The notes beneath the pieces were generated by a model. The model was not told where the DNA came from, did no database searches, and worked only from the letters and a program-made list of their open reading frames with translations. Below, piece by piece: positions 24,715 to 46,810 of a stretch of DNA of 64,000 nt (the first letter of the stretch is position 1; every line of letters starts with the position of its first letter). The DNA comes from Vitellaria paradoxa (lineage: Eukaryota; Streptophyta; Magnoliopsida; Ericales; Sapotaceae), in assembly GCA_019916065.1 (NCBI GenBank), contig CM034237.1, positions 40,096,485 to 40,160,484 of the forward strand. The letters are read 5' to 3'. A program made the translations under genes and the position numbers.

Positions 24715-26237
24715 TGATTGGACATCAATTGATACATATTTATACATTCAAATTACACTTGCACACATCATAAAAAGACATAAAATCTATGTTTTGTGCA
24801 GATTTCATCTCCATATCTCCAAAGTGGATTGTGTGTTGATTTCCATCACAAGAACAAGAAATTAAGCTACATTGAGGATGTTGAGAAGAAAGCATGCTGC
24901 ACAACACATCAAAGGATTGAAGCTATTTCAGAAGAAGAAGAAAATTCAGTTGAAATCAGTACAAAGAAATCAGAATCACTATTCTGGAAATTTCTGCAGC
25001 AGGGGATCGTATTCGAATATGGGTTTACTGTATTCGAATATGAGCTTCTTCACAGCAACGAATTCCATGTGACCCCAACTTCCCCACGTGATGTAATCTG
25101 CAATCCAGGGAGGGCAAATCAGGAAAAGATATAGGAGAGAGAAGAAGCCATCATGAAGGGAACATTCGGTTAGAGGAGAGAGAAAAGATATAGGAGAGAG
25201 AAGGAAGAAAGAAGGGAGAGGAGACCCACACGACAGAAGATACAGAGGGCATTCGGCTAAGAAATTCAGATTTGAGGAGGAGAGTTTTTTAGAGTTTTTT
25301 CATTGAGAGTTCAGAGTTTTATATTGGAATTTTAATTCAGCATTGGAGTTTTTGGAGATTTACACATTGAATTCATTCCAATTTCTGTAATCAGATTTTG
25401 AAGTCTAAATCCATTTAACTTTCAATTTCAGATTGCAATGTCTTCTAATCAGATTTCCATTTCTGTTTTTCTTCATTTCAACATGCTCGGCTAAGTTTTC
25501 TTGAGCCAAGGCAAGGGTAATGCCCTTCCAATGAATCTCAAGTGGCCGAACTTCATGAATTTACCTTGAGTTTTTATGGTTATCAAATCAATTTGCAGCT
25601 GGGTGTCTTAGAACTCATTGATTCAAGACCCGATTAATCCAACTTTGTATATCCTATTGATGAGTTCATAGGTGTTGCTTAACTTAGAACTCTCATGACA
25701 TTGTTGTATGTGGGTTGCTAGAATTAGAACTCCTATTGTCCTTAAAATAGGTTATGCACATTGAGTGTTTAATCCATGGTTTGTTTCAATTGAAATTAAT
25801 TTTCTCAAAAATCAGTACAAATTGATTTGGTAAATTTATAAGCTCTTGGCACTTGAAATTCATTTGGATTGGTATTAAACTTGCCTTGCTCAACCTTTTT
25901 ATCATTTAATCTTTAGTTTAAATTCACTTTGCTTTTGGAAAGTTAGTTCAAAATCATCAACCAACCAAATCAGATTTTAATTTTCTATTTTACATTTTTC
26001 TGTGAGTTGTGTTTTGCCAAATTAATCTCCATTAGAGTCATTCACTTCATTACTCCCTAGATCCCTGTGGAAATGACCTGGGACTTACCAGTTATTTTGT
26101 GCTTCAACCACACCTTGCACTGGGGGAAAACTTGTCTTGACTTACCTCACTTAACATTTTCTTTAACTTTGAATTTATAATCTGAATTTTTATTTGAGCT
26201 TTTATCTTGAAGTGAGGTAATTAAACAAGAACAAGCA
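24715..26237 (+). repeat. Athila element 5' LTR
   Basis: 1523 bp, TG...CA. It contains two exact ATTCGAAT palindromes (25011-25018 and 25032-25039) and a GAGAGAGAAG-rich stretch (25130-25215). The 112-codon ORF inside it recurs in the other LTR and is not taken as a gene. Confidence 0.92.
25011..25039. repeat. ATTCGAAT pair, 21 bp apart (5' LTR)
   Basis: Exact palindromes at 25011-25018 and 25032-25039, both extending to TATTCGAATA with the flanking T and A. As RNA the two copies could form a 10-bp stem with an 11-nt loop. See the findings for the whole series. Confidence 0.8.
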
Positions 26238-26245
26238 CAAATTTA

Positions 26246-26263
26246 TGGCGCCGTTGCCGGGGA
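26246..26263 (+). promoter_or_regulatory. Primer binding site (tRNA-Asp)
   Basis: TGGCGCCGTTGCCGGGGA lies 8 nt after the 5' LTR. It is complementary to the 3' end of plant tRNA-Asp including CCA, the usual primer for Athila/Tat elements. Minus-strand cDNA synthesis would start here. Confidence 0.92.
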
Positions 26264-26449
26264 TCTTTGAGAAGCAATGGTGTTTTGAGCCTTTGGAGCA
26301 TTGACTGGCAGTACATCTCACCATCATCTTCAACAACAGAGCTGCTTAACTTGTTGAGTAACTTTGTTTCATCTCTATTTCTATTTCTTTTATAGTTTTA
26401 GTTGTTAGTTTAGTTTTAGAACTGCTTGCATCTGAATCCTGAAATTCTG

Positions 26450-26479
26450 ATTCGAATCTGTTTCATCTGATATTCGAAT
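26450..26479. repeat. ATTCGAAT pair, 22 bp apart (leader)
   Basis: Exact copies at 26450-26457 and 26472-26479, in the untranslated leader before gag. A related ATCTGAAT lies 20 bp upstream at 26430. Confidence 0.75.
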
Positions 26480-26568
26480 ACGGCTGCATTTCTTTGCTGA
26501 GAGCTGTAGTTGCAATTCTCTGTGAATCAGTAGATGAAATTGTGAAGTTAGGAGTTTAGATTGGAGTT

Positions 26569-29500
26569 TTGTTTCAGTCTGAAATTCTGTTTATGCTTTT
26601 AAGGTCTGGTAAACTTGTTGGAAACAGATTTGAATTGCATTCTCCATCTTCTCTTGCTGAATTGATTGAATTTTCTGCACTACATTCCCAATCTGAATTT
26701 TCTGTTGCACATATGGATCCACCACCACCTGTTCTGCCGGAAGGAAGTGTTCAAGGAGAGAATGATCAAATGGATCAAAACATCCTTAGACCTCTCCGGG
26801 AATACCTTTATCCAGCTAGACAAACCACTCCATCTTGCATTGTTCTTCCAAATGGACATCAGAATTTTTATCTTAAACCTGGAACAATTCAGCTGTTACC
26901 AACTTTTCATGGCATGGACTCAGAAAATCCTTATATGCATATGAAAGAATTTGAAGATGTTTGTGGAACTTGCATGGATAGGAATGTTAATGAGGACATG
27001 GTTAGGCTTAAATTATTTCCATTTTCATTGAAAGACAAGGCAAAAATGTGGTTGAATTCACTTGAGCCTAGATCAATAGGTACTTGGAGAGACATGCAAA
27101 CAAAATTTTTGAAGAAGTATTTTCCTGCAAATAGAACTGTGATTCTTCAACAGCAAATAATGAATTTTGTGTGTAAATCCAATGAAACATTTGCTCAAGC
27201 ATGGGAAAGATTCAAGGAATTATTGCAAGCATGTCCACATCATGGTTTTGAATCTTGGAGAATTGTTAATTTTTTCCATAATGCATTAACTCCAAATCTG
27301 AAAATGTTGGTTGCCACCATGTGTAATGGTGAATTCTATGACAAAACTGCTGAAGAGGCTTTACATTTCTTTGATGCTTTAGCTGAAAACACTAAACAGT
27401 GGGAGGTAGTCTCCCCATTTTGTTCTGAATTTTCTGACAGATCAAATGATAGAGGAAAGCTCCATCTCAATGAGGCAGATGATGTTGGAGCTAGGCTGGC
27501 TGCATTGTCAAGAAAGATTGAATTGATGGAGCAAAAGAAGCAAACATTGAAGGAGAGTGAAGTTAAGTGTGTGATGTGTGAAACCGCAGACCACAGGACT
27601 GATGATTGCCCAACACTTCCAGCCTTTAAGGAAGTTCTCTATGGTCAAGCAAATCCCACACAAGCTGCAAGACCCTTCAATCAAAATCAGGGGATGAACA
27701 CATATTCGCAAGGCCATAGTCCATATTCGAATAGCTACAACCCTGGCTACAGAAATCATCCAAACCTTTCTTGGAAAGCAGAAGCACAGAACCAACAATA
27801 CCAACCTCAACAAAATGTACAACCCCAACCATTTCCTCCTCAGCCTTTTCAACCTCAGCAGAATTCAAATTTTTATCAGCCACCTCACAAAAGATCTTTG
27901 GAAGACACCTTGCAACAATTTATGCAAGGGCAGATTGGAACCAACAATCAGAATTCCAAGTTTCAAGAGCAGACAAACAGGGCCATGGAAGACATCCGAA
28001 GTCAATTGTCAAAGCTAACTCAAGCTTTAACTATCAGAGAATCAGGAAAGCTTCCATCTCAGCCAAGACCAAATCCTACAAGCCAAGTTCATTTCAGTGA
28101 ATCATCTTCATCTGCTGCAAATGAAAATCTGGAGCATGTACAAGCTGTTTCAACATTGAGAAGTGGTAAGCAAATTGTCAAGCCAGATTACAAACCACCT
28201 GCTGAAGAAATTGAGGAAGAAAATGAGCAAGAAATCATGAAAAATGAAGAAGAGGTGCAGCTGAAACAGAAATTGGACAGCAAAACAGAAAGTGAACAGA
28301 AACAGAAATTTAGCACTTCTGAGAAAGAAGACATGTTTCAGAATGAAGAGCAAGAATTGAAGCAAAATGAAAGACTAATTGGGAACAACAAGTTGGACAG
28401 ACAATTTGAGGAAAAGCAGAATCTGAACCAACAAAATCAGGAAATTCTGATGCAGCCAGAGGGATATTCGAATACCAGCAAGCAACATTCGAATAGCAGT
28501 AAGCAGCAAATCAGAATCCAGAGAACAGAGCAGGTAAATTCTGAAAATAAAGAGGAAATTTCTGACAATAAGAAAATAATTTCTGAAGAAAATCAGTTTG
28601 AAAAGAGTGAGAAAGATTTTGAAAATAAAGAAATTTTGAATAAAACCAATTTGGACAAATCTGAATTTTTTCCAAAACTTCCATTTCCACAAAGATTGAA
28701 CAAAGCCAAGAAAGAGAATTTGGATTCTGACATCTATGAATTGTTCAAACAAGTCAGAATCAATATTCCCTTACTTGATGCAATTAAACAAAATCCATCA
28801 TATGGAAAATTTTTGAAAGATTTGTGCACTGTCAAGAGGAAAATGAATGTGAAAGAAAGAGCATTTTTGACTGAACAAGTGAGCTCCATTTTGCAATTTA
28901 AAACTCCTCCCAAATATAAAGATCCAGGTTGCCCCACCATAGCCTGCTTAATTGGGAATCAAAGGGTAGATCAAGCTTTGCTAGATTTAGGTGCAAGTGT
29001 CAACCTCTTACCATTCACTGTTTACAAACAGCTGGGGTTGGGAGAACTTAGACCTACAAGGGTGACATTACAACTTGCTGATAGGTCAGTTAAAGTCCCT
29101 AGGGGTGTGGTTGAGGATGTCTTGATTCAAGTGGATCATTTTTACTTTCCAGTGGACTTCATAGTATTAGACACTCAGCCCATTCAAGGGAACCAACCAG
29201 TTGTACCTGTTATCCTAGGAAGACCATTTTTGGCCACCTCAAATGCCTTGATCAATTGTAGAACTGGAGTTATCAAGCTCTCCTTTGGAAACATGACAAT
29301 TGAGAAAAACATCTTTAAGGTGACCAAGCAGCCGAGTGATTATGAGGAGGTAGAGGAAGTTGATTGGATTCAAACAACCACTCAAGATCACTTTGATAGA
29401 GAGTATTTTGATGACCCTTTGGAGAAAGCTTTAGTGAATAATGAGCAAGTAGATTTCCTAGCTGATTTTGACTTGGAGAATTGTGAGGGAGGAGAATTTG

Positions 29501-32500
29501 AGGAAATGAAAAATTCAGTGCTGATGATGAATCAGTGGAGACCAACTGTTGAGTCTTTAGAGCTGCCCATAGCCAAGCCTTTGTCATTTTTGGACCAGCC
29601 ACCAAAACCTGAGAGAAAACCTTTGCCAAGTGACTTGAAATATGTATTTTTAGGTGAGGGAGAGTCCTATCCAGCTGTCATTTCATCTCAGCTGAGTTTG
29701 GACCAAGAAAATAGACTTGTGGAAGTCTTGAGGAAGCATAGAGGAGCTTTGGGCTGGACCATAGCAGACCTGCAAGGAATCAGTCCACTGATTTGCACCT
29801 ATAGAATATTCTTGGAGGAAGAGGCCAAGCCTATTAGGCAAATGCAAAGGAGACTCAATCCCAACATGAAAGAGGTTGTTAGAGGGGAGGTAATCAAGCT
29901 TTTGGATGCTGGAATTATCTACCCCATCTCAGATTCTAAGTGGGTAAGTCCAACTCAGGTAGTGCCTAAGAAATCTGGAGTGACTGTGATTAAGAATGAA
30001 AAAGAGGAATTAGTTCCAATGCGCATCCAAACAGGATGGCGCATGTGCATAGATTATAGAAAGTTGAATGCAGTCACAAGGAAAGATCATTTCCCTCTTC
30101 CATTCCTAGATCAGGTATTGGAAAGAGTGGCAGGGCATGCATTTTACTGTTTCTTGGATGGTTACTCTGGGTATAATCAGATTGAGATTGCATTGGAAGA
30201 TCAAGAAAAGACCACATTCACTTGCCCATTTGGCACATTTGCATATAGGCGTATGCCTTTTGGTCTTTGCAATGCTCCTGCAACATTTCAGAGATGTATG
30301 ATGAGTCTGTTTAGTGATTTTGTAGAGAGATTCCTTGAAGTTTTTATGGATGACTTTTCAGTATATGGCAGTGACTTTGATACATGTTTGGGAAACTTAG
30401 AGAAGGTTTTGATTAGATGTGAGGAGAAAAACTTGGTTTTGAATTGGGAAAAATGCCACTTTATGGTAACTCATGGAATTGTCCTTGGCCACATAGTGTC
30501 TTCTAGGGGGATAGAAGTAGACAAAGCTAAAGTGGAAATTATTCAAAAACTTCCTACCCCTAGATGTGTTAAGGATATCAGATCATTTCTTGGCCATGCT
30601 GGGTTTTATAGAAGGTTTATTGCATCATTCAGTGCCATTGCTAGACCTTTGTGCAACCTTCTATCCCAGGATGTCCCCTTTGATTGGACACCAGAGTGTC
30701 AGGCCTCATTTGATAGACTTAAGAGTTTGCTCACCTCAGCTCCCATTATGCAGCCACCAGACTGGACTTTACCATTTGAGATCATGTGTGATGCTAGTGA
30801 TTGTGCCATTGGTGCAGTGCTAGGACAGAGGAGGGATAGGAGACCACATGTGTTGTACTATGCTAGCAAAACCCTTAGTGAAGCACAAAGGAATTACACT
30901 ACTACTGAGAAGGAGTTGCTAGCAGTAGTATATGCCTTGGACAAGTTCAGATCATACCTGGTAGGTTCTCATGTCATAGTATACACTGACCATGCTGCTT
31001 TGAAGTATCTCTTGACCAAACCTGATGCTAAGCCTAGACTTATTAGATGGATTCTTTTGCTTCAAGAATTTGATTTAGAAATCAAGGACAAAAAGGGAGT
31101 TGAAAATGTAGTTGCTGATCACCTTTCTAGACTCCCACATCAAGATTTAGCATCCTTTGATTCTCCCATCAATGAGACATTCCCTGATGAGCAGTTGTTC
31201 CACATAGACTCTTCTGAGGTACCTTGGTTTGCAGATATAGCCAACTACCTAGCTTCAGGTATTGTGCCTTCTCACTGGACCATGTTGGATAGAAGAAAGT
31301 TCTTTAGGAATGTGAGACACTTTTTCTGGGATGACCCTTATTTGTTTAAGTATTGCTCAGATCAAGTCATAAGGAGATGCATACCCGAGAGTGAAGTACA
31401 GAGTGTCATTAGTTTTTGTCATACTCTTGCATGTGGAGGTCATTTTTCAGCTAGGAAGACAGTGGCAAAGATTTTACAGAGTGGATTATTTTGGCCTACC
31501 ATGTTTAGGGATGTGCATGCCTTTTGTGTTGCTTGTGATAGGTGTCAAAGGCTTGGTAAGATCACTAGGAGAAACATGATGCCACTTCACCCCATTTATG
31601 TGCTTGATATCTTTGATTGTTGGGGTATGGATTTTATGGGACCATTTGTGAATTCATTTGGCAATGAGTATATCTTAGTGGCAGTGGATTATGTTTCAAA
31701 GTGGATAGAAGCTATACCAACTAAGACCAATGACCACAAGGTAGTGATAAAATTTTTGAAGGAAAATGTGTTTTCAAGATTTGGAATGCCAAAGGCCATG
31801 ATAAGTGATAGGGGAACACATTTTTGCAATAGACATGTTGGTCTTTTGATGAAGAAGTATGGGGTGTTACATAAGGTTGGAACATCTTACCATCCCCAAA
31901 CAAGTGGACAAGCCGAGTTGGCCAATAGAGAGATCAAGAGAATCATTGAAAAAACAGTGAATCCCACAAGGAAAGATTGGTCTTTGAAATTGGTTGATGC
32001 ACTTTGGGCTTATAGGACTGCCTACAAGACTATCCTAGGCATGTCTCCTTATAGGTTAGTGTATGGAAAAGCTTGTCATCTTCCTGTGGAACTTGAACAC
32101 AAGGCTTTTTGGGCAGTGAGACACTTTAATGAGAGCATCACTGAATCTGGTTTTCAAAGAAAATTGCAACTAAATGAGCTTGAGGAGATTAGAAATGATG
32201 CATATGAGAATGCTAAGATCACCAAGGATAGAGTGAAGAAATGGCATGATACACATATTCTCAAAAGAGAGTTGTTTGTGGGTCAAAAGGTCTTGTTATA
32301 TGACTCAAGGTTACACTTGTTTCCCGGGAAATTGAAGTCCAGATGGAGTGGTCCATATGTGATTCAGAATATCACTGAGTTTGGGGCTGTTGACATTCAA
32401 AATCCAACCTCCAAAAATGTTTTTAGAGTGAATGGACAGAGATTGAAAGAGTATAATGAGAATTTTGTTGCTGAAGTGGAGAGTTGGGATCTTGAAGATC

Positions 32501-32517
32501 CCCCAAATTCTGTTTGA
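26569..32517 (+). CDS. gag-pol: Athila gag-pol polyprotein, uninterrupted
   Basis: 1982 codons from the first ATG. The ATG at 26713 ([11 protein letters not shown]) is the likelier gag start, because the conserved opening [10 protein letters not shown] follows. Gag core [18 protein letters not shown] lies near residue 148, and a CCHC knuckle at C334-C337-H342-C347. A Gln/Glu/Lys-rich linker runs about 350-720. Protease has DLGAS at 806-810 (Leu in place of Thr, usual in Athila). Reverse transcriptase has FMDD at 1259-1262; RNase H begins near D1408. Integrase has H1618, H1625, C1653, C1656, then D1688, D1747, E1783 (D-35-E). The C-terminus ends after the [20 protein letters not shown] module, and there is no chromodomain. 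All catalytic residues are present, so the enzyme set looks functional. Gag and pol share one frame. Four ATTCGAAT-type motifs lie in gag and the linker. Confidence 0.95.
27704..27732. repeat. Degenerate ATTCGAAT pair in gag, 21 bp apart
   Basis: ATTCGCAA (27704-27711) and exact ATTCGAAT (27725-27732). Both read YS(Q/N) in the gag frame. Confidence 0.6.
28466..28494. repeat. ATTCGAAT pair in the gag-pol linker, 21 bp apart
   Basis: Exact copies at 28466-28473 and 28487-28494, coding YSN and HSN in a low-complexity linker. Confidence 0.75.
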
Positions 32518-33207
32518 ATGGAGGAAGAATTCTGATTTTGTATCATAGTAGTGTAGGTTCTGTTATGTTTTTGATTTTCTGTTTTCTTTGGTTTTTGTAA
32601 TTTTCTTTCTTTCATCTAAAAAAAAAAAAAAAAAAAAATTTTTCAGTTTGCAAGTTTTAACACATTGGTTTCAGCAAGTTCATGAAGAATTGAGAATTTC
32701 TGCTTTATGTTTTACTGATATGTGAATCTTCAAAGGTTGGAACTGACATGTGCTATTTGAGGTAGCAACATCACTTGTGGTGGACCTACTTGAGAGTCAA
32801 GTGGAATAAATGCATTGGCTTGATGTGTTTTGGGAGTATAATGCATTAACCAAAGTGGGTAGCACATGTTTTCAAAGTGTTTCAGAATGCAGCTAAAGAA
32901 TTTCAATTGAGCAAGCTTCATTAAGGATCAAGTCACATCAGCAGGTGCAACAAAAACTGATCAAATCTGGTACTGCTATTAAGTCCAAATCATCTCATTT
33001 GAATAGCTGAATAGTCATTTGAATAGGCCATCTGAGCACAAAATCTCATCTGTGAACAGCAACCCATCTTGCATACTTACTGATTTCCTGCATCTTGGTT
33101 GTTTGTGATGCTTGGCAAAACCTCATTGATCTTTAATTACACTCACCCCAGTTTGTGTTGTTTTGGTTCTACTGATTTGCATTTTCTTTGAGAATATTGC
33201 ATTGAAC

Positions 33208-33220
33208 AAGTTGGGGGGAG
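33208..33220 (+). promoter_or_regulatory. Internal polypurine-tract-like G run 1
   Basis: AAGTTGGGGGGAG resembles the 3' polypurine tract of the same element (GTAGTTGGGGGGTGTG) and could prime internal plus-strand DNA synthesis. Assignment is by similarity only. Confidence 0.45.
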
Positions 33221-33363
33221 CAATTGTTTTGGTAATACCTTGGAGTTTCAGCTGGTCTACATCACTCAAACATGTTAACCTTAAACTCAGCAGGTACCCT
33301 TTTTCCCTTTGCACTTTATTCCAGATTGATTGACTTGTTTGTGCATTGAGGACAATGCTTGTT

Positions 33364-33378
33364 TTAGTTGGGGGGGGA
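33364..33378 (+). promoter_or_regulatory. Internal polypurine-tract-like G run 2
   Basis: TTAGTTGGGGGGGGACA is the second GTTGGGGGG tract in the spacer, about 155 bp after the first. The same AGTTGGGGGG core stands directly before the 3' LTR. Confidence 0.45.
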
Positions 33379-33724
33379 CACAATCTGAGTTTGTGAATGT
33401 GAATAATTTTGCTGAAATTTGCTGAATTGGGTGATTGGATATGATCAGAATGTTTTGAATATGATTTGGAATTGCTTGAATTGAATTAAGATCATGCTTA
33501 TGTCAGTTTGAGTTTGCATATGTTGAAAATTTGAAAAAAAAAAAAAAAAAAAAAATTTTTTTGAAACTGTGGAAAAATTGCAAAACTTCTTCTTGAATTA
33601 GTTGTTCTTTTGAAATAATTTTCTAATCTTAGCTGTTGGCAAAACTTAATTTGAGTATTCTTAAGAAATGGAGAAGAATTTCTGGTTTTCTGGACACTGG
33701 AATTGCAAAGTGCTGATAACCCGT

Positions 33725-33820
33725 ATTCGAATATGGGTATGGGTATTCGAATATGATGTCAGTTTTAAATCCTGTATATACCCGTAAGTGGCCCCATTTA
33801 AGGTCCTGTTCTATTCGAAT
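33725..33820. repeat. ATTCGAAT pair (20 bp apart) plus a single copy before ORF2
   Basis: Exact copies at 33725-33732, 33745-33752 and 33813-33820, all within TATTCGAATA, 195-290 bp upstream of the ORF2 start. Confidence 0.75.
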
Positions 33821-34014
33821 ACGAGCCCTGGTGCCCACAACCCTGAAACCTTCACCATTCCACATCTTCTTCCAGCCTTTTACTTTCAGATTATCTGAGT
33901 GAGATTTTGAGTTGACATTGAAGGGAAGATTCAGATACAGAGCTGCGATTGAAGAAGCTAGGGTTTACAGCTTGGAGAATTTCTGATAAAGGGTGGAAAA
34001 TCAACTGAAGCAAA

Positions 34015-35394
34015 ATGCCACCAAAGAGGATGAAGAAGATGGCTTACAAAGGAAAGGCTAAGAGAAGGAGCATGAGGATTTTGAGCCAACATGGTAAGGG
34101 TTCTTCACTTGTTGTTCAGGAACCCATAACTTATGAACTGTCATCCTCTAAATCAGACCGTAGGTCTTCTTCTAGAACAGAATCATTCCATTCTGTAGGC
34201 AATGAGAGTTTGAGTGAGAGACATGAAACTCATGTCTCTAATGTTGAAAAGGAAAACTCTGTTGGAGTTCCTGAGAATGTGCCGATTGAGGAACACACCT
34301 CTGCTCCTGAGGATGAGGTCCACACCTCTGAAAAGGTTCCTGAAGATGAACCTGAAGCACAACCTGGCCATGATCAGTTTGATGAGGGTTCTTTTGATAA
34401 TTTGAGGTTTTCCAACAAAGCTTCAAAGCTGAAATTTGATGAGAATTACAGCAAGAGAGCTGTGTTGACTGAAAGAGGAATTAAATTGGAGGATTACAAT
34501 GAACCACCCTATGAATTGTTAGAGTTATTTGAGCAAAGGGGCTGGATACATTGGGTTACAACCAGTAGGAGGGCTGTGGTACCATATGTGAGGGAATTTT
34601 ACTCAAATGCTGAAATAGGTATGATTCATGGGAGACCTGAGATAAACTCTAAGGTTAGAGGGAAGAGAATTAGTTTGAATCTTGAGAAGATTTCCTTCAT
34701 AGGTCATTTGCCTGTTGAAAGAATACCCGAATCCACACCTAAACAAAAAGCAAAATGGGAGAAGCAATTGCATAAGGACAATTTGGCTAGGCTCTTCACA
34801 GCCAACCCTCGAGCTAAATGGACCACTTCTAGGATGTCCAAGTCAGGAATTACTCCCAAAAGTAATATCCTTCACATGCTGGTCTGTTCTTTATTTCTGC
34901 CCCATGCTTACAAGTCAACCATCACTCTTGAACAAGCCATGATTATGGGAAAGATGTTGTTAGGCATTCCCATGGATTTACCTTACCACATTTGGTTGGT
35001 TATTTCTCATGTGGTAGAGAAACCAGAATCCACTGCTGGGCTGCCTTTTGGAGGTTTAATTACAGAGATAATTGAGCACTTTTTGGGAATAGAGGAAGAG
35101 GCAGGAATGGCCATTGTGAAAGCTGCTCCTTTGATAGACAAAATATCCATGAATCGAAGTCGAGGGCAATTGAAGAAGGCTACTTCACCTGCAGTTGAGA
35201 ACAATCAGCAGCAGCCAGCAGAGGATGAGGCAACTGAAGCAGCCCCCATGAGCACAGAGGAGAAGTTGAAATTAATCCAGAAAAATCAAGAAGTGCTGAT
35301 GAGGGAAGTGAGTGAGCTGAGACAGGGGCAGCAGAAGCTTATTCGAATGGTGGAAAGCATATTCGAATGGAGTCAAGAAGGGAGAAATGCTTAA
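34015..35394 (+). CDS. Athila second ORF (459 aa), plant-transposon-protein-like
   Basis: Uninterrupted. The basic N-terminus MPPKRMKKMAYKGKAKRRSM could be a nuclear or nucleolar signal. Residues about 40-130 are acidic, Ser/Glu-rich and low complexity. A folded part from about 135 to 375 has KRAVLTERGI, RGWIHWVTTSRRAVVPYVRE and FYSNAEIGMIHG, then a V-RGKRISLN stretch and SNILHMLVCSLFLP. The C-terminus (about 410-455) is a predicted coiled coil of KLKLIQKNQEVLMREVSEL type. From memory this matches the plant-specific domain called 'putative plant transposon protein' in protein databases. It sits where Athila elements carry their env-like ORF, but I see no signal peptide or clear membrane anchor, so I do not call it an envelope. 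It probably needs a spliced or internally initiated mRNA. Function unknown. Confidence 0.7.
   Translation: MPPKRMKKMAYKGKAKRRSMRILSQHGKGSSLVVQEPITYELSSSKSDRRSSSRTESFHSVGNESLSERHETHVSNVEKENSVGVPENVPIEEHTSAPEDEVHTSEKVPEDEPEAQPGHDQFDEGSFDNLRFSNKASKLKFDENYSKRAVLTERGIKLEDYNEPPYELLELFEQRGWIHWVTTSRRAVVPYVREFYSNAEIGMIHGRPEINSKVRGKRISLNLEKISFIGHLPVERIPESTPKQKAKWEKQLHKDNLARLFTANPRAKWTTSRMSKSGITPKSNILHMLVCSLFLPHAYKSTITLEQAMIMGKMLLGIPMDLPYHIWLVISHVVEKPESTAGLPFGGLITEIIEHFLGIEEEAGMAIVKAAPLIDKISMNRSRGQLKKATSPAVENNQQQPAEDEATEAAPMSTEEKLKLIQKNQEVLMREVSELRQGQQKLIRMVESIFEWSQEGRNA
35341..35368. repeat. ATTCGAAT pair at the end of ORF2, 20 bp apart
   Basis: Exact copies at 35341-35348 and 35361-35368, read in two different codon phases (IRM and IFEW). 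Protein-level selection therefore cannot explain both. Confidence 0.75.
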
Positions 35395-36379
35395 TTTCAG
35401 TACTTCAGCCATGATCCAGACTCTTTTGTCCTTGAAACCAGATTTTTGACAACAAATCTTTAGAATATTTCAAATATGTTTTGTCAACAATAGGATTTGA
35501 ATTAATGTTCCTGCTGTTTGTTTCTTTTGATTAGGATTAAGTTGTTTTGTTTTACTTTTGCTACTTAGGACTTTGAACTTTCAACTTGGAATGAATGAAA
35601 CTTCTGTTTTCTTGGAATTAGTAATGTCATTTGCATAATTTGGATTGAGCTGAGTTGAAGTATGAAATTTTAAAGAGTTGTTGTGATTGCCATGTGTTTT
35701 TAAGTTGAAAAGTGTGTGAATGGATTTAGTTTGAGGATTGTTGATCTAACATTTGTCTTGAAGAATGAATTTATGAATGAATAATGTGTTTTATGGATTT
35801 CCAGATATAGTGGAGACTTAAAACCTGAAGTGAGATATTTGAGCCTTAAACTTTGTCATGAGAGACTTCATTTACTCTAAGGGCTTTCCAAAAGCTCAAG
35901 CTTTTTTGCACTTCAAATTACTTCAATAACTCCACTTATATTATTTTGCTTTGGGTGTTTGTGAAGTGATGGATGAATGGAACTAGACTTCTGATTCTTA
36001 ACTTTTATGGTTGAATAGAAATGAAATCATAGAAATGATATTAGGCCATTTTTCTTAACATTTGAGCTTGGAATGCCTTTCTTTGATGAACATCATCCTT
36101 GGAGCCAAGTTTGAGCTTTATTAGAGCATTCATACTTCTTTATTCTTACCACATCATACCTTTAACCATTATGAATGCTCTTTAGCCTTCCCTAACAGAT
36201 TGGAATACACTGAAAATATTAAGGAAGAGAAATGAACAACACTTTGGGATTTTGAGGTGAGAAGAAAGAAAATGAATGGAATGAGGAAAAGAAAATGTTA
36301 AGGGAAATTCTTGATAAAAAGAAAATCAAAAAGGTGGAAACTGTTTTACTTTTGAAAAACATTCACTTGAGGTTAATTT

Positions 36380-36425
<46 letters not shown>

Positions 36426-37114
36426 AGAAGAAGAATTGGAGAAGGGTAGAAGAAAGTTTATTTCAGTGTTCCAAATCAGTTTTTGAATTCTTTATCCTTC
36501 CCTTCTATTACCTTATTAAACCTCATGGCCCCATTACAACCCATTGCAAGTCCTAATTGATCTTTGAAAGAATTCTCATTCAATTGTGAAATTTAGGAAT
36601 TAAGGAATCATGGTGAAAATTCTGAAATTATTTTGCTACATCATTCCTTCATGGAGTTATGCCAAGTCTAATTCTTTCTTGAATACATCGTTTTTTGACT
36701 TGTTGATGCCACCTTCTAGAATTTGATGAACATTTACTCTTAATAGGGGCATCTTGAGTGAAACCTTGTGTGCTCTATTTTCTTTGGAGTGAATTCCAAG
36801 GTGAGATTTGAAGTCAAAACTTGGGAATGAAATGGAATGCAAAGTTCAGGATTAAATGAAGTTCTAAAAGATGTATGTCAAGATTGATAGAGTTAAAAGC
36901 TGCTATTCATTCACATTCATTTCACACATTTGGCAAGTTTCACATCTCTTATAAAATTTTAAATTTTAAACTTTGCTCATGAAAATTTTTGCTCATGGTG
37001 TTAACTAATTCCATATGAATAGCTGAAATATCATTCGAAATTGAAATGAAATTAATGCTTTTGTATTTCTCTCCTATTTCTTCTATTTAGAAGCATTACT
37101 AGGGACTAGTAATG
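35395..37114 (+). other. Spacer between Athila ORF2 and 3' LTR
   Basis: About 1.7 kb, non-coding. It has a pure A run of about 45 at 36379-36423 followed by GAAGAAGAAGAA. A degenerate motif pair (ATATGAAT 37013, ATTCGAAA 37033) lies about 100 bp before the LTR. No ORF has recognisable similarity. Confidence 0.6.
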
Positions 37115-37132
37115 TTGTAGTTGGGGGGTGTG
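37115..37132 (+). promoter_or_regulatory. 3' polypurine tract of the Athila element
   Basis: TTGTAGTTGGGGGGTGTG directly abuts the 3' LTR start TGATTGG. It is the expected primer for plus-strand DNA synthesis. Confidence 0.8.
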
Positions 37133-38656
37133 TGATTGGACATCAATTGATACATATTTATACATTCAAATTACACTTGCACACATCATAAAAAGACATA
37201 AAATCTATGTTTTGTGCAGATTTCATCTCCATATCTCCAAAGTGGATTGTGTGTTGATTTCCATCACAAGAACAAGAAATTAAGCTACATTGAGGATGTT
37301 GAGAAGAAAGCATGCTGCACAACACATCAAAGGATTGAAGCTATTTCAGAAGAAGAAGAAAATTCAGTTGAAATCAGTGCAAAGAAATCAGAATCACTAT
37401 TCTGGAAATTTCTGCAGCAGGGGATCGTATTCGAATATGGGTTTACTGTATTCGAATATGAGCTTCTTCACAGCAACGAATTCCATGTGACCCCAACTTC
37501 CCCACGTGATGTAATCTGCAATCCAGGGAGGGCAAATCAGGAAAAGATATAGGAGAGAGAAGAAGCCATCATGAAGGGAACATTCGGTTAGAGGAGAGAG
37601 AAAAGATATAGGAGAGAGAAGGAAGAAAGAAGGGAGAGGAGACCCACACGACAGAAGATACAGAGGGCATTCGGCTAGAGAATTTCAGATTTCGTAGAGG
37701 AGAGTTTTTAGAGTTTTTCATTGAGAGTTCAGAGTTTTATATTGGAATTTTAATTCAGCATTGGAGTTTTGGAGATTTACACATTGAATTCATTCCAATT
37801 TCTGTAATCAGATTTTGAAGTCTAAATCCATTTAACTTTCAATTTCAGATTGCAATGTCTTCCTAATCAGATTTCCATTTCTGTTTTTCTTCATTTCAAC
37901 ATGCTCGGCTAAGTTTTCTTGAGCCAAGGCAAGGGTAATGCCCTTCCAATGAATCTCAAGTGGCCGAACTTCATGAATTTACCTTGAGTTTTTATGGTTA
38001 TCAAATCAATTTGCAGCTGGGTGTCTTAGAACTCATTGATTCAAGACCCGATTAATCCAACTTTGTATATCCTATTGATGAGTTCATAGGTGTTGCTTAA
38101 CTTAGAACTCTCATGACATTGTTGTATGTGGGTTGCTAGAATTAGAACTCCTATTGTCCTTAAAATAGGTTATGCACATTGAGTGTTTAATCCATGGTTT
38201 GTTTCAATTGAAATTAGTTTTCTCAAAAATCAGTACAAATTGATTTGGTAAATTTATAAGCTCTTGGCACTTGAAATTCATTTGGATTGGTATTAAACTT
38301 GCCTTGCTCAACCTTTTTATCATTTAATCTTTAGTTTAAATTCACTTTGCTTTTGGAAAGTTAGTTCAAAATCATCAACCAACCAAATCAGATTTTAATT
38401 TTCTATTTTACATTTTTCTGTGAGTTGTGTTTTGCCAAATTAATCTCCATTAGAGTCATTCACTTCATTACTCCCTAGATCCCTGTGGAAATGACCTGGG
38501 ACTTACCAGTTATTTTGTGCTTCAACCACACCTTGCACTTGGGGGAAAACTTGTCTTGACTTACCTCACTTAACATTTTCTTTAACTTTGAATTTATAAT
38601 CTGAATTTTTATTTGAGCTTTTATCTTGAAGTGAGGTAATTAAACAAGAACAAGCA
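37133..38656 (+). repeat. Athila element 3' LTR
   Basis: 1524 bp, almost identical to the 5' copy. Differences include one transition at about 37379, a cluster at about 37676-37715 (AAGAAATTC versus AGAGAATTTC and neighbouring indels) and single-base indels. It retains both ATTCGAAT palindromes (37429-37436, 37450-37457). Confidence 0.92.
37429..37457. repeat. ATTCGAAT pair, 21 bp apart (3' LTR)
   Basis: Same arrangement as in the 5' LTR, with no change in either octamer or in the spacing. Confidence 0.8.
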
Positions 38657-38860
38657 CTCGTCCCGGACTATGAGATTAGGAGCATAACACTTATAATTTA
38701 TACCTGGTCTCACTTTAGTCTATTTTGTTTTAATTATGGTAGTCTAATTTCGGTTAAGATACAATTGGGTTCTTCTGCCAAATATCATTTATTGCTAGTC
38801 ATTAGAATGAGGGTAATTTGGTCAATTTGCATTTGAAACTAGGGAGACAGTTAAAGTGGA
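38657..38860 (+). mobile_element. Fragment of a Mutator-like terminal repeat
   Basis: GGTCTCACTTTAGTC, TTTTAATTATGGTAGTC, TTAGAATGAGGGTAA and neighbouring text align with the left inverted repeat of the element at 59044-60134. No opposite end was found, and the Athila LTR abuts its left side, so this is a truncated or split relative. Confidence 0.5.
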
Positions 38861-44796: not shown

Positions 44797-45411
44797 CTAT
44801 CTCGGCATAGCCACTGCATCATGTATTCTTACTTGCACTTCTTCTGCCACTCTATCTGACTTTTGAGCTTCAATTACCTTGCTACCTAACACAGGCTGAA
44901 TAACCGAAGTATACAAAATAGCTTGTTCACCATCTTCTTTAACCTCCAAGTCAAACTCCCCTAAATCCCTCATCATATCCCACTTCTTAATAACAAAACT
45001 TGCTAGAGTACAACGAGTCTTCCTGCTAAATGCGTCTGCCACTACATTAGCCTTTCTTGGGTGGTACTGTAAGTCAAAATTATAATCCTCCATGTATTCC
45101 ATCCATCTCCTTTGTCTCAAGTTCAACTCATTCTGTGTAAATATGTATTTCAGACTCTTGTGGTTAGAAAACACCTCAAAATTTTCACCATATAGGTAAT
45201 GCCTCCAACTTTTTAGGGCAAAAATTACTGCTGCTAGCTCTAAGTCATGAACTGGATAATTCTGCTCATGTATCTTTAATTGTCTTGACCTATATGCTAC
45301 CATTCTACCATTTTGCATCAAAACACATCCTAATCCTTCTCTAGACATATCACAATACACTGAATAGGCTGCCCCTCTTTCTGGAATGATTAATACTGGC
45401 GCAGTAGTCAA
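44797..45411 (-). pseudogene. Chromovirus RNase H region
   Basis: 204-codon open segment: [20 protein letters not shown] (first Asp), then the Glu region [34 protein letters not shown] (the third Asp replaced by Asn), and [12 protein letters not shown]. It is open, but isolated from RT by a stop. Confidence 0.85.
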
Positions 45412-45438
45412 TTTTCTCTTTATTTCTTCGAAAGATCT

Positions 45439-46450
45439 TTAACATGCTTCATCCCACGCAAATCTAACTCCCTTTCGGGTTAGCCTGGTCAAAAGAGCGG
45501 CCAACCTAGAGAAGTCAAGCACAAACCTCCGATAATATCCCGCCAATCCCATGAAACTACGAATCTCAAACACCGTCTTTGGTCTTGACCATTCAAGGAC
45601 AGCTTCAACTTTAGATGGGTCTACCACAACCCTTTCCACGTGTCCCAAAAATTTCAGCTCCCCTAACCAGAATTCACACTTGCTCAGCTTAGCATATAGT
45701 TGGTGATCTTTTAAGGTTTGCAATACTGTCCTCAAATGCCCTTAATGTTCTTCCTCTAATTTCAAATAAACCAGCATATCATCAATAAACACCACCACAA
45801 ACTTATCGAAATAGTCTCTAAACACCCTATTAAATCCATAAATGCTGCAGGGGCATTAGTCAACCCAAATGGTATAATTAGGAATTCGTAGTGACCATAC
45901 TGAGTCCTAAATGCTATCTTAGGAACATTCTCTTGTTTAACTCGTAGTTGGTGGTATCCTGATCTCAAATCAATCGTAGAGAATACAGATGACCCCTTTA
46001 ACTAATCGAATAAAATCATCGATCCTTGGTAGTGAGCATCTATTCTTAATAGTAACCCTATTCAATTTCCTATAATCAATATACATCCTTAATATTCCTT
46101 ATTTCTTTGCCACGAATAGTGCCGGTGAACCCCAAGGTGAGGTACTTAGCCTAATAAACCCCTTAGTCTGCGATTCCTCTAACAACTTCTTCAATTCTAT
46201 CAATTCCGTCGGTGCCATTCTGTATGGGAGAATAGATATGGGTTCCGTACCTGGTACTAGGTTAATACTAAATTCTATCTCTCGCTTAAGCGGTAAACCA
46301 GCAATTTCTTCTGGAAACACTTCTGGGAATTCACAGCCAACCCTGGGCAATCCTACCTCATTCTTAATGTCTTCCCCGTCTACCAACCTACAAGTAAACA
46401 TACTACACAAAGCCATTCGTTCTTGTCCATCCAAATACGGCAAGGTAGGT
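45439..46450 (-). pseudogene. Chromovirus reverse transcriptase region (broken)
   Basis: SPWGSPALFVAKK (about 46110), [20 protein letters not shown] and [20 protein letters not shown] (45850-45970), FIDD catalytic core near 45785 in another frame, then [14 protein letters not shown] and [14 protein letters not shown] (45439-45735). Stops and frameshifts separate the pieces. Confidence 0.85.
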
Positions 46451-46810
46451 GCCCCATACTGGTCAGCAAGGAAGCGGATCCGATCTCCTTCTAGGGTAAA
46501 CAAAGTTACTTGCCTCTTAGCGCAATCAATTATTGCTTGGTATGTTTTAAGCCAATCCATACCTAGAATGACATCAAAGCTTCGCATTTCTAGTAAAATC
46601 AAATCAACCACTGAGTGATACTCCTGACCATCGATACTATCAGTAATCACCAACTCACATTCTTTACATACGTTGGTCAACAAAGATCGCCCTGCTATCG
46701 GTGTTTCAACACTTAAGGGTATAACCAGGTCATGTAATTTCAATCCTAACGCAGACACAAAGGATACAGCAATAAAAGAATATGATGCTCCAGTATCAAT
46801 AAGTACTGTA
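46451..46810 (-). pseudogene. Chromovirus retropepsin
   Basis: VLIDTGASYSFIAVSFVSAL gives an intact DTGA active site (about 46775-46800), followed by the second conserved patch RSFDVILGMDWLKTY. This stretch is open in one frame into the RT start. Confidence 0.85.

Follow-up and report, generated by a model that had tools for sequence, protein, structure and literature searches.

Paired palindromic octamers two helical turns apart in an Athila-like retrotransposon of Vitellaria paradoxa

Dispersed motif arrays in mobile elements

The insect retroelement gypsy carries an array of binding sites for a host factor, Su(Hw), confined to its leader. The array that concerns us here may likewise consist of host-factor sites in a retroelement but, unlike gypsy's, it is element-wide, running through a long terminal repeat (LTR) retrotransposon of the Athila lineage. 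The element lies in a 64,000-nucleotide stretch of the Vitellaria paradoxa genome (contig C5, 40096485-40160484), which we call the window, and the array is built from a palindromic octamer, ATTCGAAT, set mostly in pairs. We consider it probable, from the sequence comparisons that follow, that these octamers form a selected protein-binding array of dyad-symmetric sites.

Two closer precedents are in print. Sireviruses, which are Ty1/copia elements, carry repeated motifs that are palindromes with CpG, present in 8-32 copies per element (PMC2829016). These motifs sit in the LTR and in the linker upstream of the ENV-like gene, with a few at the start of ENV; they vary between elements, and all except that of Tnd-1 (ACAATCGATTGT) have a CGG-CCG core and form CpG islands (PMC2829016). 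The octamer array shares their form, a multi-copy palindromic box in the LTR and ahead of an ENV-like open reading frame (ORF). It differs in its TTCGAA core, its CpG-poor surroundings and the Ty3/gypsy domain order of its host element. Octamers also lie inside gag and the additional 3' ORF (ORF2), and two-turn pairing is not described for Sireviruses in the available text of PMC2829016. The second precedent comes from VANDAL transposons, the VANC targets of which (YAGTATTAY or AGTTGT(C/A)C) are non-palindromic, noncoding and different between related VANDALs (PMC5735166; PMC10398659). Like the octamer, they are short exact motifs that have multiplied inside the element by tandem repetition. 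The octamer, however, is palindromic and partly coding, and it stays constant while the ORF2 protein falls to 38-45% identity (L019, L023 and L025), whereas VANC motifs diverge with their protein. The array thus combines the form of the Sirevirus motifs with the growth mode of the VANC targets, yet fails one defining feature of each. A sequence-only reading of the window, which first pointed out the array, knew of no described system like it; these two precedents come close, although neither matches fully (PMC2829016; PMC5735166).

Athila elements with an additional 3' ORF of family PF20167 match ours in layout and ORF family, and the available text of the papers concerned mentions no motif array (PMC11728184; PMC7264820). 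Nor did we recognise a description of such an array among titles and abstract openings in the open-licence literature. One question left open in print is whether proteins encoded by Athila-type elements influence the methylation of those elements (PMC12844716). The array supplies an exact DNA target for it, with natural variants, spacing classes, decayed copies and many near-identical family members. It also reveals a nucleic-acid signal that selection maintains within coding sequence firmly enough to withstand CpG decay.

An array far above chance

The array is far above chance, is spaced at 20-22 bp and keeps its position among copies and families, with gains and losses at some positions. 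Fourteen exact copies of ATTCGAAT lie in the element and three elsewhere in the window (17022, 58597 and 63648), all exactly where the sequence-only reading had placed them. A first-order Markov model expects 0.09 in the element. With the LTR counted once, 12 octamers remain, arranged as five exact pairs and two singles (Table 1). Five hundred dinucleotide shuffles gave a mean of 0.062 octamers, a maximum of 1 and no pair. ATTCGAAT is the highest-ranked 8-mer dyad in the element and accounts for 12 of its 13 TTCGAA hexamers. One-mismatch octamers are not enriched (13 in the 13.9-kb element vs 48 in the 50 kb outside), and the site is therefore all-or-none.

The six pair spacings reported earlier (21, 22, 21, 20, 20 and 21 bp) are correct as values, but a single LTR pair is counted twice among them, once in each LTR. 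Nor are the LTR and spacer pairs independent of each other, because they share long identical flanks. Three degenerate pairs had also been proposed; they are present, on weaker support. With up to three mismatches allowed over both sites, spacings of 20-22 bp hold 10 pairs, five exact and five degenerate, where 300 shuffles averaged 0.27 and never exceeded 2; each of the other spacings from 9 to 45 bp, however, also yields between 0 and 4 degenerate pairs. Flanks 3 to 12 bases long resemble each other more within pairs than between them (permutation p 0.009-0.028), a pattern that local duplication of about 21 bp would produce. New pairs would then be made by tandem duplication and afterwards retained.

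Table 1. Features of the element and its octamer sites (window coordinates)
Feature	Position	Strand	Remark
5' LTR	24715..26238	+	99.2% identity to 3' LTR; holds one exact pair
LTR pair, sites 25011 + 25032, spacing 21	25011..25039	.	exact in 3/4 fetched close-family 5' LTRs (L026, L030, L032); second site decayed in L028
Primer binding site TGGCGCCGTTGCCGGGGATC	26246..26265	+	contains 3 of 37 CpGs outside octamers
Leader pair, sites 26450 + 26472, spacing 22	26450..26479	.	exact match positions
gag-pol ORF	26569..32517	+	ORF list and Pfam
gag site 27725 with degenerate partner ATTCGCAA at 27704	27704..27732	.	27725 exact in 9/9 gag pieces
gag linker pair, sites 28466 + 28487, spacing 21	28466..28494	.	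21-bp tandem repeat
Degenerate pair ATTTGAAT x2, spacing 20	32997..33024	.	degenerate-pair scan
Spacer pair, sites 33725 + 33745, spacing 20	33725..33752	.	exact in 40/40 motif-blind copies
TATATA	33775..33780	+	22 bp past spacer pair, 240 bp before ORF2 ATG
Single octamer	33813..33820	.	starts 68 bp after start of spacer pair's second site; exact in 38/40 motif-blind copies
ORF2, 459 aa, PF20167	34015..35394	+	ORF list and Pfam
ORF2 3'-end pair, sites 35341 + 35361, spacing 20	35341..35368	.	sites read in different frames
Degenerate pair ATATGAAT / ATTCGAAA, spacing 20	37013..37040	.	degenerate-pair scan
3' LTR with pair 37429 + 37450, spacing 21	37133..38657	+	LTR comparison and exact match positions

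Copies retrieved without reference to the motif

The most direct view of constraint comes from copies found through ORF2 rather than through the octamer. The window's ORF2 gave 2881 first-look candidates in the genome (667 Mb, 71 contigs). Scores were computed for 92 of these, which are 94-100% identical to it, and the top score is shared by nine rows, one of them the window's own. The sole ORF2 homologue in the protein database, P0001 from another plant (51% identity), gave 2909 candidates and 99 scored rows, a list that overlaps the first. From each list we took 20 short pieces lying directly upstream of ORF2, the first 20 being plus-strand rows mainly from the lower half of their list and the second 20 covering several ORF2 subtypes. 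The sample is dominated by close relatives.

The spacer pair is intact in every one of the 40 copies. The third octamer, at 33813, is altered in two (L061, ATTCCAAT; L073, ATTCGAGT), so that 118 of 120 octamers are exact overall. Over 41 rows, the window included, the 24 columns of the octamers have a pairwise diversity of 0.004 and the 127 columns of the flanks one of 0.141; 2/24 and 63/127 of these columns vary. Both subgroups show the same tendency (1/24 vs 24/127 in the near group of 31 rows, 1/24 vs 13/127 in the second group of 10), although the rows are related by descent, which makes Fisher p values indicative only, and the within-group contrasts rest on few changes, consistent in direction. 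One copy, L067, has three octamers at 20/20 spacing, the product of a 20-bp tandem duplication. The sequence-only reading had named findings that would refute its proposal, namely other copies without the pairs, no excess conservation or no spacing bias; checked here, these points came out in favour of the proposal. A dispersed, selected array at two-turn spacing is thus supported: other copies keep the array, and codon use and composition (below) fail to explain it.

CpG depletion and its exception

The element has been almost purged of CpG. Over 24715-37132 (12,418 bp) it retains 49, an observed/expected ratio of 0.11 that drops to 0.046 in pol, while the parts of the window flanking the element stand at 0.43 and 0.60 and a Ty3-like remnant at 44797-46758 at 0.55. 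The depletion reaches into codon choice: gag-pol has 101 AGA or AGG arginine codons and 5 CGN. Against this background, 12 of the 49 CpGs fall within octamers. The ratio CG/(CG+TG+CA) is 0.025 across the element and 12/18 in octamer context (odds ratio 104, p 2e-16). In the motif-blind copies, octamer CpG positions read CG 122 times, TG or CA never and CC once, whereas flank columns with any CG read CG 120 times and TG or CA 149 times. Taken together, the comparisons show strong purifying selection acting on the octamers as nucleic acid.

Two side observations belong here. Over the same 24715-37132, CAG occurs at 2.2 times and CTG at 1.7 times the outside rate, so that CG has been purged and these CHG sites kept. 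A second LTR motif, CATTCGGYTA, also retains its CpG; there are two copies and a related CTCGGCTAA (positions 25164, 25251 and 25486).

Constraint within coding sequence

Octamers in coding sequence fall in all three reading phases. All four TCG codons of gag-pol, among 127 serine codons, lie at octamer sites (one being the degenerate 27704). Synonymous shuffling never reproduced the three octamer sites of gag-pol in 5000 attempts, and reproduced the two sites of ORF2 in 18 of 5000. These three results place the constraint on DNA or RNA rather than on peptide. A peptide-level repeat is ruled out by the use of three phases and by the homologous proteins (P0001 for ORF2 plus the best 120 of 1499 gag matches), of which 0 of 121 encode paired octamer peptides at 20-22 nt; two of the 121 do so at 27 nt.

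Pairs across the genome and turnover among families

A genome-wide query for pairs with a gap of 10-18 bases found 2,529 places, and the backwards-read pattern 16. Fifty distinct places were listed, all on one contig (C1), which also supplied the long pieces compared below, so that these comparisons cover one contig of one genome. Although spacings of 18-26 bp were allowed, 49 of the 50 lie at 20-22 bp (10 at 20, 34 at 21, 5 at 22), the last being at 25. We cut 15 loci, some overlapping; 13 align to the window element at 66-89% over parts, while L002 and L003 do not. Further element pieces (L016-L035) were picked from motif hits on the same contig. The collection holds 17 distinct pair cassettes.

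Among families that are about 74-79% identical over aligned parts, the position of the array is kept, yet with turnover. The gag octamer at 27725 is unchanged in 5/5 diverged pieces despite flanks only 71-77% identical. In the spacer, 24/24 octamer bases are unchanged in both L017 and L021, whose flanks are 64% identical, and the pair is exact in seven of nine pieces, L019 included. The second site at the ORF2 end is exact in all five pieces that aligned (eight were tried). In the leader the second site is exact in 5/9 pieces and both sites in 1/9, diverged rows aligning poorly here; L016 has a 22-bp leader pair of its own. The LTRs of L015, L016, L018 and L020 carry two exact pairs each (21-22 bp), about 70 bp apart, in sequence that is mostly unalignable to the window LTR; those of L007, L022, L034 and L035 carry one pair, and some LTRs hold decayed sites. 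In gag, five of the nine pieces have gained a second octamer 33 bp downstream of 27725, about three turns away, which changes HPN to HSN.

The array had been called element-specific, and this proved too narrow: it spans diverged Athila-like families, and paired sites occur in a second kind of repeat. That repeat resembles a miniature inverted-repeat transposable element (MITE) and is present at two places (L002 1404-1633; L003 1331-1633). Its arms contain AAAACGACG- and ACTTAAGT-type words, and it bears CATATTCGAATA-type sites at spacings of 20, 35 and 53.

Two other observations concern the families. LTR-only anchors on C1 look like solo LTRs: in 6/6 tested, the 15 flanking pieces match the window element at the LTR end only (6) or nowhere (9). 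The LTR-gag parts of L018/L019 and L020/L021 are 99% alike over 700 bp of gag, yet their spacer-ORF2 modules are very different, a contrast that appears to reflect module exchange among families.

What the array may be

If the octamers are indeed a selected protein-binding array, the two helical turns between pair centres would let two protein dimers sit next to each other on the same face of the helix. The partner would be a sequence-specific nuclear protein. Once bound, it could act element-wide: it could make the LTR promoter accessible or active, do the same for a probable internal promoter before ORF2, and perhaps resist silencing. More tentatively, we can picture a CpG-purged LTR lineage that keeps a helically phased array of CpG palindromes and uses it to recruit a protein, its own or the host's, against CG methylation, with anti-silencing or chromatin opening as the outcome.

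Several findings weigh against a maintained protein-binding array and should be set out together. Exact octamers are absent from pol and from the 3' untranslated part. The spacer pair is missing from L025 and L031, although L031 aligns over just 339 bases and L024, which is the same element as L025, retains octamers in its LTR and gag. Of the five pieces aligned at the ORF2 end, two have an exact first site and three have lost it. The first leader site is decayed in most pieces, with a C-to-T change in 3/9, two of them changed further, again where diverged rows align poorly. The corresponding residues of P0001, IRLLEGMSN, are incompatible with the ORF2-end octamers under any codon choice; other plants may therefore lack the array. 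The gained gag octamer is ambiguous: the proline of HPN is invariant across an 11-row Gag alignment, but the five HSN pieces have also altered an invariant asparagine two residues ahead of it, and relaxed protein constraint is a possible alternative to selection for the octamer. ORF2 has no sequence match in PDB up to an E value of 1, and its structural model, built from a two-sequence alignment, has a mean predicted local distance difference test score of 34.8, with only part of a C-terminal helix reaching 55-68. Lastly, compared with controls in which everything but the octamers is shuffled, the LTR and spacer pairs still fold better (z -3.27 and -3.35).

That last result bears on an alternative in which the paired octamers are stems in the genomic RNA, as hairpins or as palindromic contacts for packaging or dimerisation. 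In Ty3, a short palindrome mediates dimerisation of the RNA (PMC11381356). Among the eight exact or degenerate pair regions, the LTR (z -4.87), gag (-3.22) and spacer (-2.82) fold well below shuffles, but the other five lie near them (-1.21 to +1.02), and with octamers fixed the leader, gag and ORF2 pairs form no extra stem (z 0.52, -0.39 and -0.37). The bases immediately flanking the octamers, compared over the 17 cassettes, are complementary within a site in 25/34 cases (permutation mean 19.6, p 0.014) and across the two sites in 17/34 (mean 10.0, p 0.006). The second figure is what hairpins would leave; since both exceed permutation, this measure does not separate a DNA dyad from an RNA hairpin. 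Hairpin arms, moreover, need be neither self-palindromic nor of one sequence common to all pairs, and the single octamer at 33813 is kept almost as faithfully as the pair. RNA stems therefore seem to us an improbable account. Still further down the scale is the idea of a neutral by-product of tandem duplication or slippage assisted by codon and composition bias. The likeness of flanks within pairs and the duplication in L067 fit it, but diversity about 35-fold lower in octamers than in flanks, the lack of any CpG decay in octamers, the uniform spacing and the synonymous-shuffle result leave this reading close to refuted.

Candidate binders

Returning to the protein-binding array, the protein may come from the host or from the element. 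A conserved host dimer, whose sites the element has captured chiefly as a promoter or enhancer, is a real possibility, though short of our expectation. It would account for an octamer that diverged families share without change and that recurs in another repeat of seemingly unrelated kind, and for pairs in the LTR and directly upstream of the TATATA before ORF2, which is a possible internal promoter judging by its sequence and position (the second group of motif-blind copies has TTTAAATA there). Sites in gag and at the ORF2 end are atypical of a promoter array. The other possibility, which we hold to be rather unlikely, is that a protein of the element itself (ORF2, Gag or integrase, most likely ORF2) binds the array and prevents silencing of the whole element. 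VANC proteins offer the model: they bind short motifs that built up by tandem repetition in the elements encoding them (PMC5735166), the mode by which octamers also appear to be gained. A sunflower Athila carries an ORF of the same PF20167 family with a predicted nuclear signal (PMC11728184), and our ORF2 has a basic N-terminus and a predicted C-terminal helix. The octamers, too, are spread across the element, and pairs stand upstream of ORF2 in two different spacer-ORF2 modules. Against this, the octamer is fixed while ORF2 identity drops to 42%, 45% and 38% over matched parts (L019, L023 and L025, in that order), where VANC motifs differ between related elements; the two near-identical gag lineages L018/L019 and L020/L021 have ORF2 modules 42% and 70% identical to the window's; paired sites also occur in the MITE-like repeat; and the low-confidence ORF2 model gives no DNA-binding fold. 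Because the octamer stays fixed as ORF2 diverges, we slightly favour a host factor over an element protein.

Known binding sites were also considered. The heat-shock element reads TTCnnGAA, which the abutting TTC and GAA of the octamer do not fit (a comparison made without a search). Factors of the CXC/LIN54 type (CHR, DREAM) are a poor fit as well: the octamer is strict in its TTCGAA, and TTTGAA is not enriched (28 vs 23-25 expected). Human LIN54 binds best to TTYRAA with T in the Y position or A in the R position, a condition that leaves out TTCGAA (PMC4974476).

Architecture of the element and its neighbours

The retrotransposon occupies 24715-38657 and is young, its LTRs differing by 5 mismatches and 7 gaps in 1528 columns. 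After the 5' LTR comes the primer site TGGCGCCGTTGCC, presumably complementary to tRNA-Asp. A single unbroken ORF of 1982 codons encodes gag-pol. In a Pfam scan its gag, reverse transcriptase, RNaseH and integrase pass the cut-off, and the protease falls marginally under it (24.2 vs 24.3 bits). With that reservation about the protease, the order gag-protease-reverse transcriptase-RNaseH-integrase and the extra sense ORF that follows pol and precedes the 3' LTR point to the Athila lineage, as does the PF20167 family of that ORF. Among the top matches to its gag in the protein database, the named sources include Diospyros, Vitis, Salix, Fagus, Olea and Populus. DNA relatives of the element were sought in IMG/VR and GTDB contigs, and none was confirmed.

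Three smaller observations remain. Antisense to the gag coding sequence, 27142-27248 (-) matches the plant snoR71 model (Rfam RF00097) with 47.9 bits, where the cut-off is 40; possibly this Rfam family could also catch Athila gag. Runs of TTGGGGGG resembling a polypurine tract occur three times, in the spacer (33211-33218 and 33368-33377) and at the 3' LTR (37121-37128); multiple polypurine tracts have been reported in Sireviruses (PMC2829016). Downstream of the element, the remnant at 44797-46758 (-) is a broken Ty3-like pol, judged from its ORFs.

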